DNA of 64,000 bases from assembly GCF_007993035.1 (NCBI RefSeq), contig NZ_VOOS01000001.1, positions 806,001 to 870,000 of the forward strand. The letters run 5' to 3'. Below the pieces are notes generated by a model. It ran no database searches. It was not told the origin of the DNA and saw only the letters and a list, made by a program, of their open reading frames with translations. Position 1 is the first letter of the stretch, and each line of letters starts with the position of its first letter. Position numbers and translations under genes: made by a program. The stretch comes from Vicingus serpentipes. Lineage in GTDB: Bacteria > Bacteroidota > Bacteroidia > Flavobacteriales_E > Vicingaceae. Of the stretch, positions 34,348 to 38,641 are shown one piece after another.

Positions 34348-34698
34348 TTAGTGCATTCCACCCTTTTGGCAACAGTCAGGTAGTTTGTTATATGCTTTTT
34401 CGTCAGCTTTTAAACCATCAGCATCGTAGCCAATTTTAGTTACTGCTAGTTGTAATTTTTCAGGTGTAGTTTTATTCGGTAAATATTCTACTGTAAAAAC
34501 CGCCGTTTCAACATCTAACTCTGAAGATTTCACTCCTTTTTCGTAAGCAAATGCTTTTTCCAAACGTTCTTTACACATTTCGCACTGTGCCGATGTTTTA
34601 ATTTCTACTTTTTTTGTTTCTCTCGAGCTTTGGGCTTTTACTGTTGCTCCAGTTACCGAGAATATTGCTACTGCTATTACTACTATTAAATTTTTCAT
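34348..34698 (-). CDS. Exported heavy-metal-associated (HMA) domain protein
   Basis: 116 residues with a signal peptide (MKNLIVVIAV, ends VKAQ near 23). The mature part is one HMA ferredoxin-like domain with metal-binding Cys39 and Cys42 in AQCEMCKE. It ends in a second cysteine pair (Cys109, Cys110) in LPDCCQKGG. It is thus a periplasmic copper- or similar soft-metal-binding chaperone. It lies 24 bases downstream of the TonB receptor gene and is the last gene of the metal module that starts at 37378. Confidence 0.88.
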   Translation of the reverse strand: MKNLIVVIAVAIFSVTGATVKAQSSRETKKVEIKTSAQCEMCKERLEKAFAYEKGVKSSELDVETAVFTVEYLPNKTTPEKLQLAVTKIGYDADGLKADEKAYNKLPDCCQKGGMH

Positions 34699-34722
34699 GT
34701 TTTTATTATTTTAAATTATTAG

Positions 34723-36912
34723 TTATTGTATTCTAAATCTTAAGCCTCCATAGGCAATTCTTCCATTTACCGACCCCCAAATTAAAGAAGCATCAAAATC
34801 CGAACCAAAAGGATCTGTTGCAGCAATTATTGGTGAATCCTGCCTAAAGTTGGTCATATTTTCAACACCTAAATAAAATTCAATTCTTTTAAATGCTCGT
34901 GTTATTTGTCCGTTTAAGGTTATAAATGGTTTTGAGGATGTGCTAATTTGGTTTTCAACCAAATTTGTAGCTGTACTTGGTAATCTACTCACATCAAACC
35001 ATTGCCCTGTTAAATCAAACTTCCATTTATCGAAATTGGTAATGTAACCAATATTAACCAATGCTCTATTTTTAGGAACTAAAGGTTTTTCTTTTAAACC
35101 AGTTTGGTAATCGGTTTTAATGTCATAAAGCTTATAAGCCGCTTTAATTTCTAATTGTTGGGTTATTTGGGCACTTACTTCTGCCTGAAAACTATGAGAG
35201 TATGATTTTCCTTGTAAATTATAAAACGAAACTTCATCTGGGTTTTCTAAATCTACCACTACTTGATTCTGAAAATCAGTAAAATAGTAATCTAAATTTA
35301 CACTCATTTCTCTACCTCCAAGCTCAAATTTGTGCGTAACACTTGTTCCGTAATTCCAAGCAATTTCTGGAGCTAGTTTTTCGCTAATCACTCTTCGTGA
35401 ACTTGCCATTACATTTGCATTTTCTATATAAGGGTTAGCTGTTCTAAATCCTCTCCCAACAGAAAAACGTAAAGCCGAAAGTGGAGTAAAATTGTATTTA
35501 TAATGTACTCTTGGAGTAAAAAATGCACCATATAAATTATGATAATCTCCACGAGCACCTAGAACCAATGCACTTTTCGCTGTAGTTAAAGCATATTCCG
35601 TGAAAATACCTGGTACAATTTCTTCTCTCCCAAACAAAGAGTCGTTATAATTTTTATCATAATGATCATAAACCAAGCTTCCTCCTAATTTTACATTGTT
35701 TTTCTCATTCACCATTCTTGTTTGGTAAATCGCATTTAAATAACCACTCATTTGTTCAGCATTAAACTTTTTATCGCCATACTTCGATTCGTGATTGTGA
35801 TATTTAAAACTATTGATGATACCTATACTCTTGTAAGGCTGCTCTGGAAACAAAAATCCATTTTTGGAAAATACTTCAAACTGTTTGGTTAAAACTCCAA
35901 TTTTATACAATCGATTTGTTTCAGTAGAACTAATTTGCCCTGCTTCCATATCTTCATAAACACCTTTTACTCCAAATTGAGAAACCTGTTTTTTACCTTG
36001 ATATTTCCATCTATTAAAAAAGTTAAATTGCGTTTTTAATGGCATGTCCAAAAAGGTGTCGTCATTATTATCCCAAGCCACACTTTGATTGCTCACATGT
36101 ACTAAAGTCATTGTACTCCATTTATCGTTTAACTTTTGAGCTCCATGAATATTTAGTTCTGCTCTACCTTTTTCATTTCCATAAACATTTATAAAGAGTT
36201 GTTCGGCATTGTCTGGTTTTAGCAACTCCACATTTATTTGTCCTGTTATAGATTCATAACCATTTACTACAGAGCCTGCTCCTTTTTTAATTTGTATAGA
36301 TTCTGCCCAAGTACCTGGCACAAAAGTTAACCCAAATGCAGACGACAATCCTCTAATCATTGGTAAGTTTTCAGCTTGAATTTGCGTGTAAATCCCATCC
36401 AACCCTAACATTTGAATCTTCTTAGTGCCAGAAACCGCATCTGTAAAATTTACATCAACTGAGGCGTTCGTTTCAAAACTTTCAGAAATATTACAGCAAG
36501 CAGCCTTAGTAAACTCATTTTTATTTAAAGTTTCTACCAATAATGGATTAACTAAATCTATTTTGGTACTTGATTCACGTTCGGTTAATTCAAATTCTTT
36601 TAGCTTAACGTCTTTACTTAACTTAATTTCTAGTTTTGATTTAGGCAATGATTTAACAGTAATACTATCTGTTTGATAGCCTATAAAGCTTACCATTAAA
36701 GTTGCTGGAAATTGACTAGGCTCTGCTATTTCAAAATTTCCATTTTCATCAGAAAAAGTTCCAGTTGTTGTATTTTGCCAGTAAACATTAGCACCTGGAA
36801 TTGGTGATTTGCTTTTATTGCTTTCAGATATAGTTCCTTGTACTTTTTGAGCGGCACTTATTTTTGCTATCAAAAAACATCCAAGCAAGATTAAAAATTG
36901 ATATTTCTTCAT
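34723..36912 (-). CDS. TonB-dependent outer-membrane receptor, likely metal-related
   Basis: 729 residues. The signal peptide ends SAAQ near 22. A carboxypeptidase-regulatory-like domain follows (about 23-105, with GTISESNKSKSPIPGANVYW), then the TonB plug (about 120-230, with LPMIRGLSSAFGLTFVPGT and INVELLKP), then a 22-strand barrel region ending YGGLRFRIQ. An unusual Cys139-Cys140 pair lies at the start of the plug. TonB receptors import scarce ligands across the outer membrane using energy from ExbB/D-TonB. The neighbours, an HMA protein and a HYC_CC_PP-type protein, point to copper or a related metal. Confidence 0.9.
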   Translation of the reverse strand: MKKYQFLILLGCFLIAKISAAQKVQGTISESNKSKSPIPGANVYWQNTTTGTFSDENGNFEIAEPSQFPATLMVSFIGYQTDSITVKSLPKSKLEIKLSKDVKLKEFELTERESSTKIDLVNPLLVETLNKNEFTKAACCNISESFETNASVDVNFTDAVSGTKKIQMLGLDGIYTQIQAENLPMIRGLSSAFGLTFVPGTWAESIQIKKGAGSVVNGYESITGQINVELLKPDNAEQLFINVYGNEKGRAELNIHGAQKLNDKWSTMTLVHVSNQSVAWDNNDDTFLDMPLKTQFNFFNRWKYQGKKQVSQFGVKGVYEDMEAGQISSTETNRLYKIGVLTKQFEVFSKNGFLFPEQPYKSIGIINSFKYHNHESKYGDKKFNAEQMSGYLNAIYQTRMVNEKNNVKLGGSLVYDHYDKNYNDSLFGREEIVPGIFTEYALTTAKSALVLGARGDYHNLYGAFFTPRVHYKYNFTPLSALRFSVGRGFRTANPYIENANVMASSRRVISEKLAPEIAWNYGTSVTHKFELGGREMSVNLDYYFTDFQNQVVVDLENPDEVSFYNLQGKSYSHSFQAEVSAQITQQLEIKAAYKLYDIKTDYQTGLKEKPLVPKNRALVNIGYITNFDKWKFDLTGQWFDVSRLPSTATNLVENQISTSSKPFITLNGQITRAFKRIEFYLGVENMTNFRQDSPIIAATDPFGSDFDASLIWGSVNGRIAYGGLRFRIQ

Positions 36913-36976
36913 TGTAATAAATTATAAGTTAACACTTTTAATAATTCTCTGCACATAGCAGCAAAGTGTTAAAATC

Positions 36977-37378
36977 CTATAATCTAAATAACTGAATTGT
37001 TTTGAGTAATTCTATACCACTGAGTGGTGGCGGTAAATTATGGAAGAAACTTATAGAAGCTTCTTTAACTTTAATAAGCTCAATTAATTGGGGAATCTGA
37101 ATTGCGATTAAATCAAGATTAATGAAAGAAAAATCAGTTATTGAACTAAATGAGTTAATATTATTATCGAAAGTAATTTTATGAAAATCACAACATTTAG
37201 TTGTTATAGTGCCATCTTTTTTTGATGGATTACAATCTTCTAAATCATCAACAGAAAAAAGTACCTTACCAGTCATCAAGCAAGTCATTTTAGTTACACT
37301 CAATTGAAGTGAAGAAACTAAAACAATCGCTATTAGTAAAAAGCTAGTTATATGTTTAAGTATTGCTCTCAATAACAC
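36977..37378 (-). CDS. HYC_CC_PP-type protein
   Basis: 133 residues counted from a GTG at 37378. An N-terminal hydrophobic segment (FLLIAIVLVSSLQLSV) acts as signal peptide or anchor. Conserved cysteines follow (MTCLMTGK, EDCNPSK, Cys62-Cys63 in TKCCDFHKI) and a late NLPPPLSG. This cysteine/double-cysteine/double-proline order fits the Bacteroidota HYC_CC_PP family, which is often found beside TonB receptors. The GTG overlaps the last base of a -7 box, so the true start may be the TTG two codons later. Likely periplasmic metal binding, by context only. Confidence 0.78.
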   Translation of the reverse strand: MLLRAILKHITSFLLIAIVLVSSLQLSVTKMTCLMTGKVLFSVDDLEDCNPSKKDGTITTKCCDFHKITFDNNINSFSSITDFSFINLDLIAIQIPQLIELIKVKEASISFFHNLPPPLSGIELLKTIQLFRL

Positions 37379-37385
37379 AAAGATA
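37378..37385 (-). promoter_or_regulatory. Candidate -7 box of the metal module
   Basis: TATCTTTG on the minus strand is an exact TAnnTTTG match, and its final G is the first base of the GTG at 37378. Transcription would begin close to the TTG two codons downstream. Confidence 0.5.
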
Positions 37386-37501: not shown

Positions 37502-38641
37502 ATGATAAAACAAACAAAAACAATCGCTTTAGCAATGTCAGCATCATTATTAATGTTTGCATGTGGCAACGAAGAAAAAGCAACTGAAGAAAAAGAAGCT
37601 GCATTTACAATAAATGCAACTTTAACTGATGCCAACTTTAAAATGGCTTATTTATCTGAGTACAAAGATGGTGAAATGATGAAATTAGATTCATCTGCCA
37701 TTACTGAAGGTAAATTTTCATTTAATGGAAAAATGGAAATGCCAGAAGTAAGATATATCAATTTTAACGAAGGAAAAGAAATGATTCCTTTGTTTGTTGA
37801 AAATAGTGAAATTACAATTAACGGTTCTGCAACTTTAATGGACAGTGTTAGCGTTAAAGGTTCTGTAGCAAATACAGCATATCGTTCATTTATGGACAAC
37901 TTAAATAGCTACGAAATGCCTCTTAAAGCTATTGTAGATAAATTTTATGCATTACCAGAAGACGCTTCAGAAGAAGAACAAGCAGTTCTTGAAGATGAAT
38001 ACAATGTAGCAGATTCTATAAAAATTGATTTTATAAAAAGTTATGTTGCTAAAAACGCTAATTCTGTTCCTGCTGCATACATAGCTTTACGCTATTTAAC
38101 TAGTCAAGCTGAAGTTGAAGAATTAGAGGCTTTAAGCAACTCTTTTAGTGAAGAAATAAAATCTTCTATTTACACTCAAAAAATTGCAGACAGATTAGCT
38201 ACATTGAAAAAATCAATGATTGGTGCTCCTGCTCCAGCGTTTAGCCAAAATGATGCTGATGGCAACCCTATAGCGCTAGAAAGCTTTAAAGGAAAATATG
38301 TTTTAATTGATTTTTGGGCTTCTTGGTGTGGACCATGTAGAGCTGAAAACCCTAATGTGGTTGATGCTTATAATAAATACCATGAAAAAGGATTTGAAAT
38401 TTTCGGTGTATCACTAGATGAAAGCAAAGAGAAATGGCTAGAAGCTATCGAAAAAGATGGTTTAACTTGGTCTCATGTGAGTGATTTAAAAGGATGGGGT
38501 AACGAAGTTGCTAAACTTTATGGTGTACAAGGAATTCCTCATTCTGTTTTAGTTGACAAAGAAGGAAACATTGTTGCTAAAAATTTAAGAGGCGAAGAAT
38601 TGCATAAAAAATTAGAGGAAGTTTTAGCTTCAGAAAGTTAA
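37502..38641 (+). CDS. TlpA-family thioredoxin-like lipoprotein with N-terminal DUF4369-like domain
   Basis: 379 residues. The lipoprotein signal ends LLMFACG with the acceptor Cys near 21. Residues 30-130 form the beta-rich DUF4369-like domain common in Bacteroidota. A helical linker follows, then a TlpA/ResA-type thioredoxin domain from about 245 with FWASWCGPCRAE (Cys276, Cys279) and the cis-proline in QGIPHSVL. It should act as a membrane-tethered periplasmic thiol reductase, probably fed by DsbD, for cytochrome c or metal-site cysteines. It is divergent from the metal module and ends with a strong terminator. Confidence 0.92.
   Translation: MIKQTKTIALAMSASLLMFACGNEEKATEEKEAAFTINATLTDANFKMAYLSEYKDGEMMKLDSSAITEGKFSFNGKMEMPEVRYINFNEGKEMIPLFVENSEITINGSATLMDSVSVKGSVANTAYRSFMDNLNSYEMPLKAIVDKFYALPEDASEEEQAVLEDEYNVADSIKIDFIKSYVAKNANSVPAAYIALRYLTSQAEVEELEALSNSFSEEIKSSIYTQKIADRLATLKKSMIGAPAPAFSQNDADGNPIALESFKGKYVLIDFWASWCGPCRAENPNVVDAYNKYHEKGFEIFGVSLDESKEKWLEAIEKDGLTWSHVSDLKGWGNEVAKLYGVQGIPHSVLVDKEGNIVAKNLRGEELHKKLEEVLASES

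Follow-up and report, generated by a model that had tools for sequence, protein, structure and literature searches.

Adjacent-cysteine pairs in a three-gene module of Vicingus serpentipes: a candidate copper-uptake operon with a putative leader peptide

What is the function of three consecutive genes whose products each carry a cysteine pair? The question is raised by a minus-strand module of Vicingus serpentipes (Bacteroidota), located in the 64,000-nucleotide stretch of contig NZ_VOOS01000001.1 (positions 806,001 to 870,000) that was analysed as a whole and is here called the window. A gene for a HYC_CC_PP-type protein (HYC) is followed by one for a TonB-dependent receptor and one for an HMA protein. 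An earlier note on this DNA had pointed out the three genes and their cysteine motifs, all of which we find in place, and had suggested a relay in which a metal, probably copper, passes from the receptor plug to the HMA protein, with HYC as an accessory sensor or carrier. The three genes are one operon, and we propose that it probably serves copper uptake under a copper-reading leader of its own, encoded by the HYC gene. The proposal starts from what we observed, namely conserved cysteines, gene linkage, gene fusions, a spacing within the HYC family and a hairpin behind it.

A receptor family with adjacent plug cysteines and its HMA partner

The window receptor is a TonB-dependent receptor by plug and barrel: the barrel (71.6 bits) and a CarboxypepD_reg domain scored over their cut-offs in the profile search, the Plug domain reached 21.6 bits, just below its cut-off of 23.9, and Foldseek returned TonB-receptor folds. 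Homologues were collected from genome contigs (22 loci), from 41 relatives and from 247 genomes drawn from the phylum, and a match at E ≤ 1e-85 was present in 65 of the 247 sampled Bacteroidota genomes. With the receptor of each locus picked by BLAST, 120 receptor loci gave 113 distinct rows, and the plug pair Cys139-Cys140 is kept in 111 of these, at identities down to about 32%. Of the two remaining rows, L034 is a spurious N-terminal match and L132 a fragment lacking this part of the protein. The receptor cysteines singled out by the earlier note are thus conserved among orthologues.

The controls were 20 sister-receptor loci from relatives, taken from the top in order of score after the genome of the window and another, fragmentary one had been excluded. 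The adjacent pair (CC) occurs in none of their 21 sister receptors, so the suggestion that adjacent cysteines are unusual in TonB plugs holds for the adjacent arrangement, although every one of the 21 has a CxxC elsewhere in the plug. HYC was found at 0 of the 20 control loci and HMA at one. A DtxR/MntR-type regulator accompanies the receptor of the sister family (CxxC as in NCSVCNTGDIHING; own-genome member L007, C1:534223-536349; controls L173-L192) at 11 of 20 control loci and also in the genome of the window itself; none of the CC-plug receptor loci has such a regulator. Possibly the sister family is a second cysteine-pair uptake family, for another metal. Within the CC-plug family, the receptors of L118, L119 and L121 read ACCDLxGCF, with a third cysteine near the pair, and L118 and L119 have upstream a small protein without CxxC (GCSAD...TPGC) and a cysteine-rich open reading frame (ORF) ending FWQPP-x-L-A.

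An AlphaFold model of the receptor (22 rows) has a fair barrel, with a predicted local distance difference test score (pLDDT) below 50 at residues 102-229. Foldseek on this model found generic TonB receptors, Cir and BtuB first, and OprC structures from rank 36. TIGR01778, which we take to represent the OprC/NosA copper receptors, matched neither the window protein at E ≤ 0.01 nor the 22 members at E ≤ 1e-5. OprC and NosA resemble the proposed receptor in TonB-dependent copper import and differ from it in this lack of a profile match.

The third product is a member of the HMA family (33.7 bits against PF00403, cut-off 24.8) and has C39 and C42 in place; these two residues and the tail pair C109-C110 are invariant in 15 aligned rows (window plus 14). 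Of 85 distinct ORFs at receptor loci that match the HMA model, 84 carry the CxxC and 82 a CC within their last 35 residues. Co-occurrence was counted over the 102 distinct receptors flanked by 600 bases or more on either side, identical receptors being counted once and the spurious L034 (47.8 bits) being left out. HYC lies upstream of 88 of these receptors, HMA is beside or fused to 84 (one by a weak match, L119, E 3.4e-4), and both accompany 74, so that the gene-neighbourhood check proposed in the earlier note bears the association out across Bacteroidota.

The strongest support for a relay between plug and HMA protein comes from gene fusions. In five loci (L075, L083, L087, L092, L102) the HMA unit with its tail CC is fused to the receptor N-terminus, before the plug, and in three of the five it is present in tandem, giving the order CxxC-CC-(CxxC-CC)-plug CC in a single chain; HMA and plug are thereby indicated to act together. 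The HMA-HMA-receptor proteins of L087, L092 and L102 would be ready material for probing a thiolate relay across the plug. These three fusions are headed by a different cysteine-rich leader ending IWQPPKxG-stop, in which PP lies close to the stop as in CruR (see below); the L087 leader has no DUF2946 match. Of the suggested relay, the step from plug to HMA protein is therefore supported by co-occurrence, invariant cysteines and five fusions, while the role of HYC as a carrier is not: the HYC gene has the features of a leader instead.

The HYC_CC_PP gene read as a leader

The window HYC product has 133 residues, a signal-peptide-like hydrophobic N-terminus (judged by eye), Cys33, Cys49 and Cys62-Cys63, PPP at residues 116-118 and a C-terminus FRL-stop; its CC-to-stop distance of 72 residues is within the family range. 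NF047658 (HYC_CC_PP) and PF00403 are the family models of the first and third products, the former named for motifs only. Against NF047658 the window protein scored 21.4 bits, under the curated cut-off of 28 and so outside the family by that measure; the model matches 9 of 19 close-family members (window included) at E ≤ 0.01, with a best value of 1.6e-22. Invariant columns in 19 aligned rows (window plus 18) are limited to C33, C49, C62, C63 and P118.

Spacing within the family was examined in 134 different proteins, 94 of them encoded before the receptor module, 22 before long RND ORFs and 18 before other genes. In these groups the CC-to-stop distance is 74.5 ± 5.7, 72.1 ± 1.0 and 73.3 ± 1.0 residues, respectively, and it falls within 70-76 in 111 of the 134, whereas the distance from the first cysteine to CC is more variable (standard deviations 16.4, 6.0 and 3.6). 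The intervening sequence was compared in the 129 proteins with a CC-to-stop distance of 66-80 (5 outside excluded). Among the 738 of 1500 drawn pairs with less than 30% identity, linker identity is 22% as against 24% for shuffled linkers, the CC block and the last 22 residues reach 32% and 28%, and the CC-to-stop distance differs by a median of 2 residues. Near-fixed length over free sequence resembles a nascent-chain ruler. PP occurs within the last 40 residues of 115/134 leaders and of 29/617 other ORFs, the family mean being about 15 residues between PP and stop, and 105/134 leaders have Phe or Tyr as their third-last residue. An AlphaFold model of HYC (mean pLDDT 52.6; 82/133 residues below 50; only the N-terminal helix well predicted) rests on a shallow alignment and would fit, as weak evidence, an unfolded leader. 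HYC heads the module whether the receptor or HMA comes second, with one exception, L125.

Behind the leader stop of the window lies a stem-loop, with a 10-bp outer helix TTAACACTTT/AAAGTGTTAA (36972-36963 paired with 36938-36929) around an inner CTGC/GCAG hairpin, leaving 4 unpaired nucleotides (nt) between the stop codon and the 5' arm and 16 nt between the 3' arm and the ATG. Folds of the gaps between HYC and the next gene in many species, of unrelated sequence, likewise place an outer helix from just past the stop to just before the ATG. A permissive count of closing helices (88/102 against 64/135 in controls) has a high chance level, 55% in shuffles, and we therefore counted strict helices, defined as uninterrupted Watson-Crick pairing between the first 22 nt after the HYC stop and the final 40 nt of the tested region, which runs 5 nt into the next gene. 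Counted gaps were 40-200 nt long, the next-gene start was the first ATG of the ORF, and gaps with a common 14-mer were removed; P-values for gaps assume independence, and relatedness persists after this filter. As control gaps we drew 150 at random out of 194 that separate other same-strand genes. A strict helix of at least 7 bp is present in 54/93 HYC gaps, 20/131 control gaps and 13% of dinucleotide shuffles, and one of at least 8 bp in 38/93 against 7/131. By target, the latter is found in 15/43 receptor gaps (shuffles 5.5%) and 12/17 RND gaps (shuffles 1.2%). The minimum free energy z-score is -2.37 for 94 HYC gaps and -1.07 for the 150 control gaps, and the arm-to-arm duplex score is weakly better than in controls (mean z -0.69 against -0.03). 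In one genus, 12 of its 13 gaps were aligned for a compensation test, in which 5 other loci of the same listing were not used: four of ten outer pairs have a compensated change, a level reached in 0/500 shuffles and by no slid control, with three of the four compensated cells in a single sequence (L104) and the thirteenth gap (L107), which folds without the helix, left out; these last two points count against the hairpin.

Could the stem-loop instead be a transcription attenuator, intrinsic or Rho-dependent? CruR works by Rho-dependent termination between the first and second gene (as described in the portions of PMC9426467 that we draw on), and in one genus the hairpin of several gaps is followed by a T-run; both favour attenuation over masking of the start. 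Many outer helices, however, are AT-rich with no following T-run (judged by eye), and in helices of at least 8 bp the arms lie a median of 2 nt past the stop and 7 nt before the ATG, with the 3' arm covering or abutting the start codon in L048, L051, L058, L147, L150 and L161. We consider attenuation possible, though rather less than likely.

Taken with the linkage to efflux genes described below, a CC-to-stop distance that is nearly constant although the linker sequence is not conserved, the PP near the C-terminus and the stem-loop after the stop make the HYC gene better read as a cis-acting leader than as an accessory carrier. An ordinary secreted metal-binding carrier or sensor, active after its release, with the hairpin only tuning translation rates, would also have the signal-peptide-like N-terminus and invariant cysteines of HYC and would suit a gene linked mostly to metal genes. 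Such a protein would not, however, be expected to have a linker of nearly fixed length whose identity equals that of shuffled sequence, nor to be conserved best at its cysteines, PP and the residues just before the stop; the many low-confidence residues of its model (weak evidence, as said) and its place at the head of the module in either gene order, L125 excepted, often with a hairpin after the stop, also speak against it, and we regard this explanation as the least probable of those considered.

Related leaders, known systems and the proposed mechanism

Leaders of this type are not confined to receptors. NF047658 matches occur in 73/247 genomes at 97 places, 38 beside a receptor match and 59 away from one. 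The best-scoring 40 of these 59 were fetched, and in all 40 a same-strand ORF of at least 80 residues starts within 306 nt. The downstream ORF is an RND pump in 24 of the 40, and 23 of the 24 pumps carry an AIG-type motif in the fourth transmembrane segment (TM4). The AIG type marks Cu/Ag RND pumps and the DFG type Co/Zn/Cd pumps, and this motif suggests that the leader-headed pumps serve Cu/Ag efflux. The other 16 targets comprise four HMA and three HMBD proteins, two AraC-type regulators, one OEP, one cytochrome c, one sorting-domain protein, three without a Pfam match and one that was not scanned. The sorting-domain case (L154:923-1702) is a HYC leader before a protein with a C-terminal Por_Secre_tail domain, unlike the other scanned targets. 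At two loci the import genes are followed directly by a second HYC leader and its RND pump (L021:4118-8344 and L025:5103-9419). Target types cluster on a tree of the leaders, with 12 label changes on the best tree against 37.5 in shuffles; the tree has few columns and many unresolved forks, and its well-supported branches force only 3-4 changes per group. Leaders have switched target type more than once in evolution.

These pumps bear on the identity of the metal. Instead of copper, the module might handle a metallophore complex, or one of the other metals of soft or borderline character (Zn, Ag, Hg, Cd): many soft metals are bound by CxxC and CC, the HMA protein also touches the MerP/MerTP models, all far below cut-off, and some CutF-like leaders with histidine motifs only are linked to Ni/Co genes in the passages at hand of PMC9973294. 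Thiolate ligands together with an HMA domain point rather to Cu(I), and the related leaders head pumps of the AIG type, the motif of Cu/Ag and not of Co/Zn/Cd transporters, so that we judge another metal unlikely. The presence of copper oxidases could not serve as a further indicator: a COX1-family oxidase occurs in 235/247 genomes (64/65 with the receptor, 171/182 of the others), which leaves no discrimination.

Two copper-responsive leaders offer the closest parallels. In Bordetella pertussis, CruR-BfrG(CrtA)-bp2921 is a three-gene operon in which a leader precedes a TonB-dependent copper transporter (PMC9426467, PMC12914433, in the parts used here). Like HYC, CruR is a small exported cysteine-containing leader with a C-terminal PP ahead of a TonB-dependent receptor; it affects downstream genes post-transcriptionally (PMC9426467, PMC12914433), as we propose for HYC, and its CXXC-to-RAPP spacing has been examined and found to be kept (PMC9426467), much as in our CC-to-stop analysis. 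The two differ in that CruR is a DUF2946 protein with CXXC and RAPP, while HYC has the HYC/CC cysteines and a PP about 15 residues before the stop, and the receptor of the HYC module belongs to another family, with a Cys-Cys plug, and its third gene encodes an HMA protein. To our knowledge bp2921 is not an HMA protein. No Pfam match to DUF2946 was obtained for members of the HYC alignment even at E ≤ 1, and the window HYC also lacks RAPP and CXXC; kinship with DUF2946/CruR was rejected on the lack of a Pfam match for HYC and likewise for two divergent leaders whose C-terminus has a WQPP motif.

CutF of the Rhodobacter capsulatus CutF-CutO-CutG system is an exported copper-sensing leader whose C-terminus is rich in proline, with a stem-loop that masks the start of the following gene (PMC9973294, in the sections drawn on). 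It shares with HYC export, a proline motif near the C-terminus and a stem-loop at the next start, and differs in its CxxxC and in heading a multicopper oxidase gene, HYC having another cysteine pattern. The published list of CutF-like proteins already has Bacteroidota members, with TonB, OEP and ACR_tran among the downstream neighbours (PMC9973294). Measured by the CutF-like filter, the window HYC has fewer than 150 residues, a signal peptide (by eye), a cysteine motif and a same-strand downstream gene after a short gap with a stem-loop at its start; its PPP at 116-118 of 133, however, leaves 15 residues after the last proline and so falls outside the last 15 residues that the filter covers. 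Judged from sequence, HYC would therefore work like a CutF or CruR leader while not being one of the listed CutF-like proteins, nor a member of either family by the tests run. A further likeness is to uA_LPPP and the Bacteroidota NAP-stop/NSP-stop arrest-peptide candidates, which have LPPP near the C-terminus or, in Bacteroidota leaders, conserved residues at the stop, but which precede secA or secDF genes (according to the relevant parts of PMC10987492).

On these grounds we envisage the following mechanism. The receptor would bring copper or a copper chelate across the outer membrane, Cys139-Cys140 in the plug would be a thiolate way-station for Cu(I), and the secreted HMA protein, which in some lineages is fused to the receptor N-terminus, would receive the metal from the plug with its tail CC and then its CxxC as successive ligands. 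The first gene would encode a leader peptide that is read during its synthesis and export. The near-fixed CC-to-stop distance would mean that the cysteines have already emerged when the ribosome is at the C-terminal end, and about 72 residues is about the length of the ribosome tunnel plus translocon; the leader cysteines would thus lie outside both once the ribosome reaches the polyproline or C-terminal motif. Binding of copper could then set whether the ribosome lingers at the end. A lingering ribosome would cover the 5' arm of the stem-loop and free the next start region, which the hairpin would otherwise hide. In both published leaders, as far as the parts cited go, lingering means ON, but copper acts on it in opposite ways: it relieves CruR, which regulates import (PMC9426467), and prolongs CutF, which regulates an oxidase (PMC9973294). 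For the import operon, copper may shorten the stall and switch the operon off (CruR polarity), and for efflux pumps with related leaders it may lengthen the stall (CutF polarity). With PP about 15 residues before the stop, a ribosome there cannot touch the hairpin, which makes the C-terminal motif the likelier site of the pause. As a tentative extension, which we hold to be conceivable and somewhat short of probable, there may be one Bacteroidota leader family without RAPP that uses a cysteine-to-stop ruler of about 72 residues to sense periplasmic copper, acts with opposite polarity at import and efflux genes, and arrests at the conserved aromatic-hydrophobic C-terminus and not at PP.

A number of points weigh against this proposal. 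We infer copper as the metal, the direction of transfer, the stalling and its polarity, and the copper assignment draws on HMA domains, cysteine pairs, RND pumps and analogy. The location of the pause is the weakest step, and the C-terminus of CutF, taken alone in a SecM-type assay, caused no arrest (in the part of PMC9973294 used). The proposal also requires copper to act in opposite senses on related leaders, depending on whether they precede import or efflux genes. In 18/102 receptors there is no adjacent HMA and the CC is still kept, which also contradicts the expectation, drawn from the earlier note, that the pair would be conserved only when the partners are adjacent. No HYC match was obtained by profile model at 14/102 receptors: in six of these a HYC-like or other cysteine-rich small ORF lies upstream (L063, L087, L092, L102, L118, L119), in the other eight nothing convincing does (L032, L071, L086, L101, L113, L128, L129, L131), the genome of L071 having a HYC gene 3.3 kb upstream (L141). 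The leader is not always first, since in L125 it comes after the HMA gene; a strict helix of at least 7 bp is absent from 39/93 gaps; and the low pLDDT of the plug makes the position of its CC in the receptor fold unreadable from the model.

How much of this is new? The leader idea is already in print in outline, with Bacteroidota members and TonB neighbours (PMC9973294, in the parts consulted), while those parts contain no CC-plug receptor, CC-to-stop spacing or Bacteroidota hairpins. Our search of open-licence PubMed Central (PMC) papers returned no expression data for the module; in titles and abstract openings the receptor family is untreated, 'HYC_CC_PP' appears in no paper of that collection, and outer-membrane copper entry in Bacteroidota seems undescribed. 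Relative to the open-licence PMC literature found, in so far as its text was available, the receptors with a CC plug, together with their HMA partner and fusions, appear to be new, as do the hairpins and the CC-to-stop spacing, and the analysis names a candidate receptor family, carrier and regulatory leader for copper uptake. RAPP/RGPP leaders occur with TonB-related genes throughout Gram-negatives, and those of Cu-related factors are missing from Bacteroidota (PMC12992588, in the excerpts used); with HYC leaders the phylum would have a copper device built on a different C-terminal motif. The occurrence of related leaders on both import and efflux genes makes the sign of a nascent-peptide metal response directly testable.

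Layout of the operon in the window

The features of the operon, in the order HYC, receptor, HMA on the minus strand, are collected in Table 1; the stem-loop, the polyproline near the HYC C-terminus and the terminator 3' of the HMA gene are additions to the earlier note.

Table 1. Features of the three-gene operon, in window coordinates
Feature	Position	Strand	Remark
Candidate -7 promoter element TATCTTTG, directly 5' of HYC start	37378..37385	-	Bacteroidota-type TAnnTTTG, read from sequence
HYC_CC_PP-type leader gene	36977..37372	-	ORF listed from GTG 37378; likely start is in-frame TTG 37372
Leader Cys62-Cys63 codons	37190..37195	-	Read from sequence
Leader Pro116-118 codons	37025..37033	-	P118 invariant, 19 aligned rows
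Stem-loop, leader stop to receptor start	36929..36972	-	Fold of gap
TonB-dependent receptor, 729 aa: signal peptide, CarboxypepD_reg domain, plug with Cys139-Cys140, barrel	34723..36912	-	
Receptor Cys139-Cys140 codons (KAACCNISESFETN)	36493..36498	-	111/113 rows keep the pair
Secreted HMA protein, 116 aa; CxxC (39/42), tail CC (109/110)	34348..34698	-	
Intrinsic terminator AAAAGCCAGAA-loop-TTCTGGCTTTTTTT, 3' of HMA gene, closes operon	about 34343-34311	-	Read from sequence

In 13 of 15 relatives TAnnTTTG, which we take to be the Bacteroidota-type -7 promoter consensus, is present in the interval from -21 to +5 around the called HYC start. A palindrome 5' of the window promoter, GTTAATTG-N10-CAATTAAC, was considered and dropped, no matching inverted repeat being found upstream of 15 relatives. 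The same intergenic region is shared with a divergent gene on the plus strand (37502-38641), which encodes a thioredoxin-like protein with a WCGPC motif.

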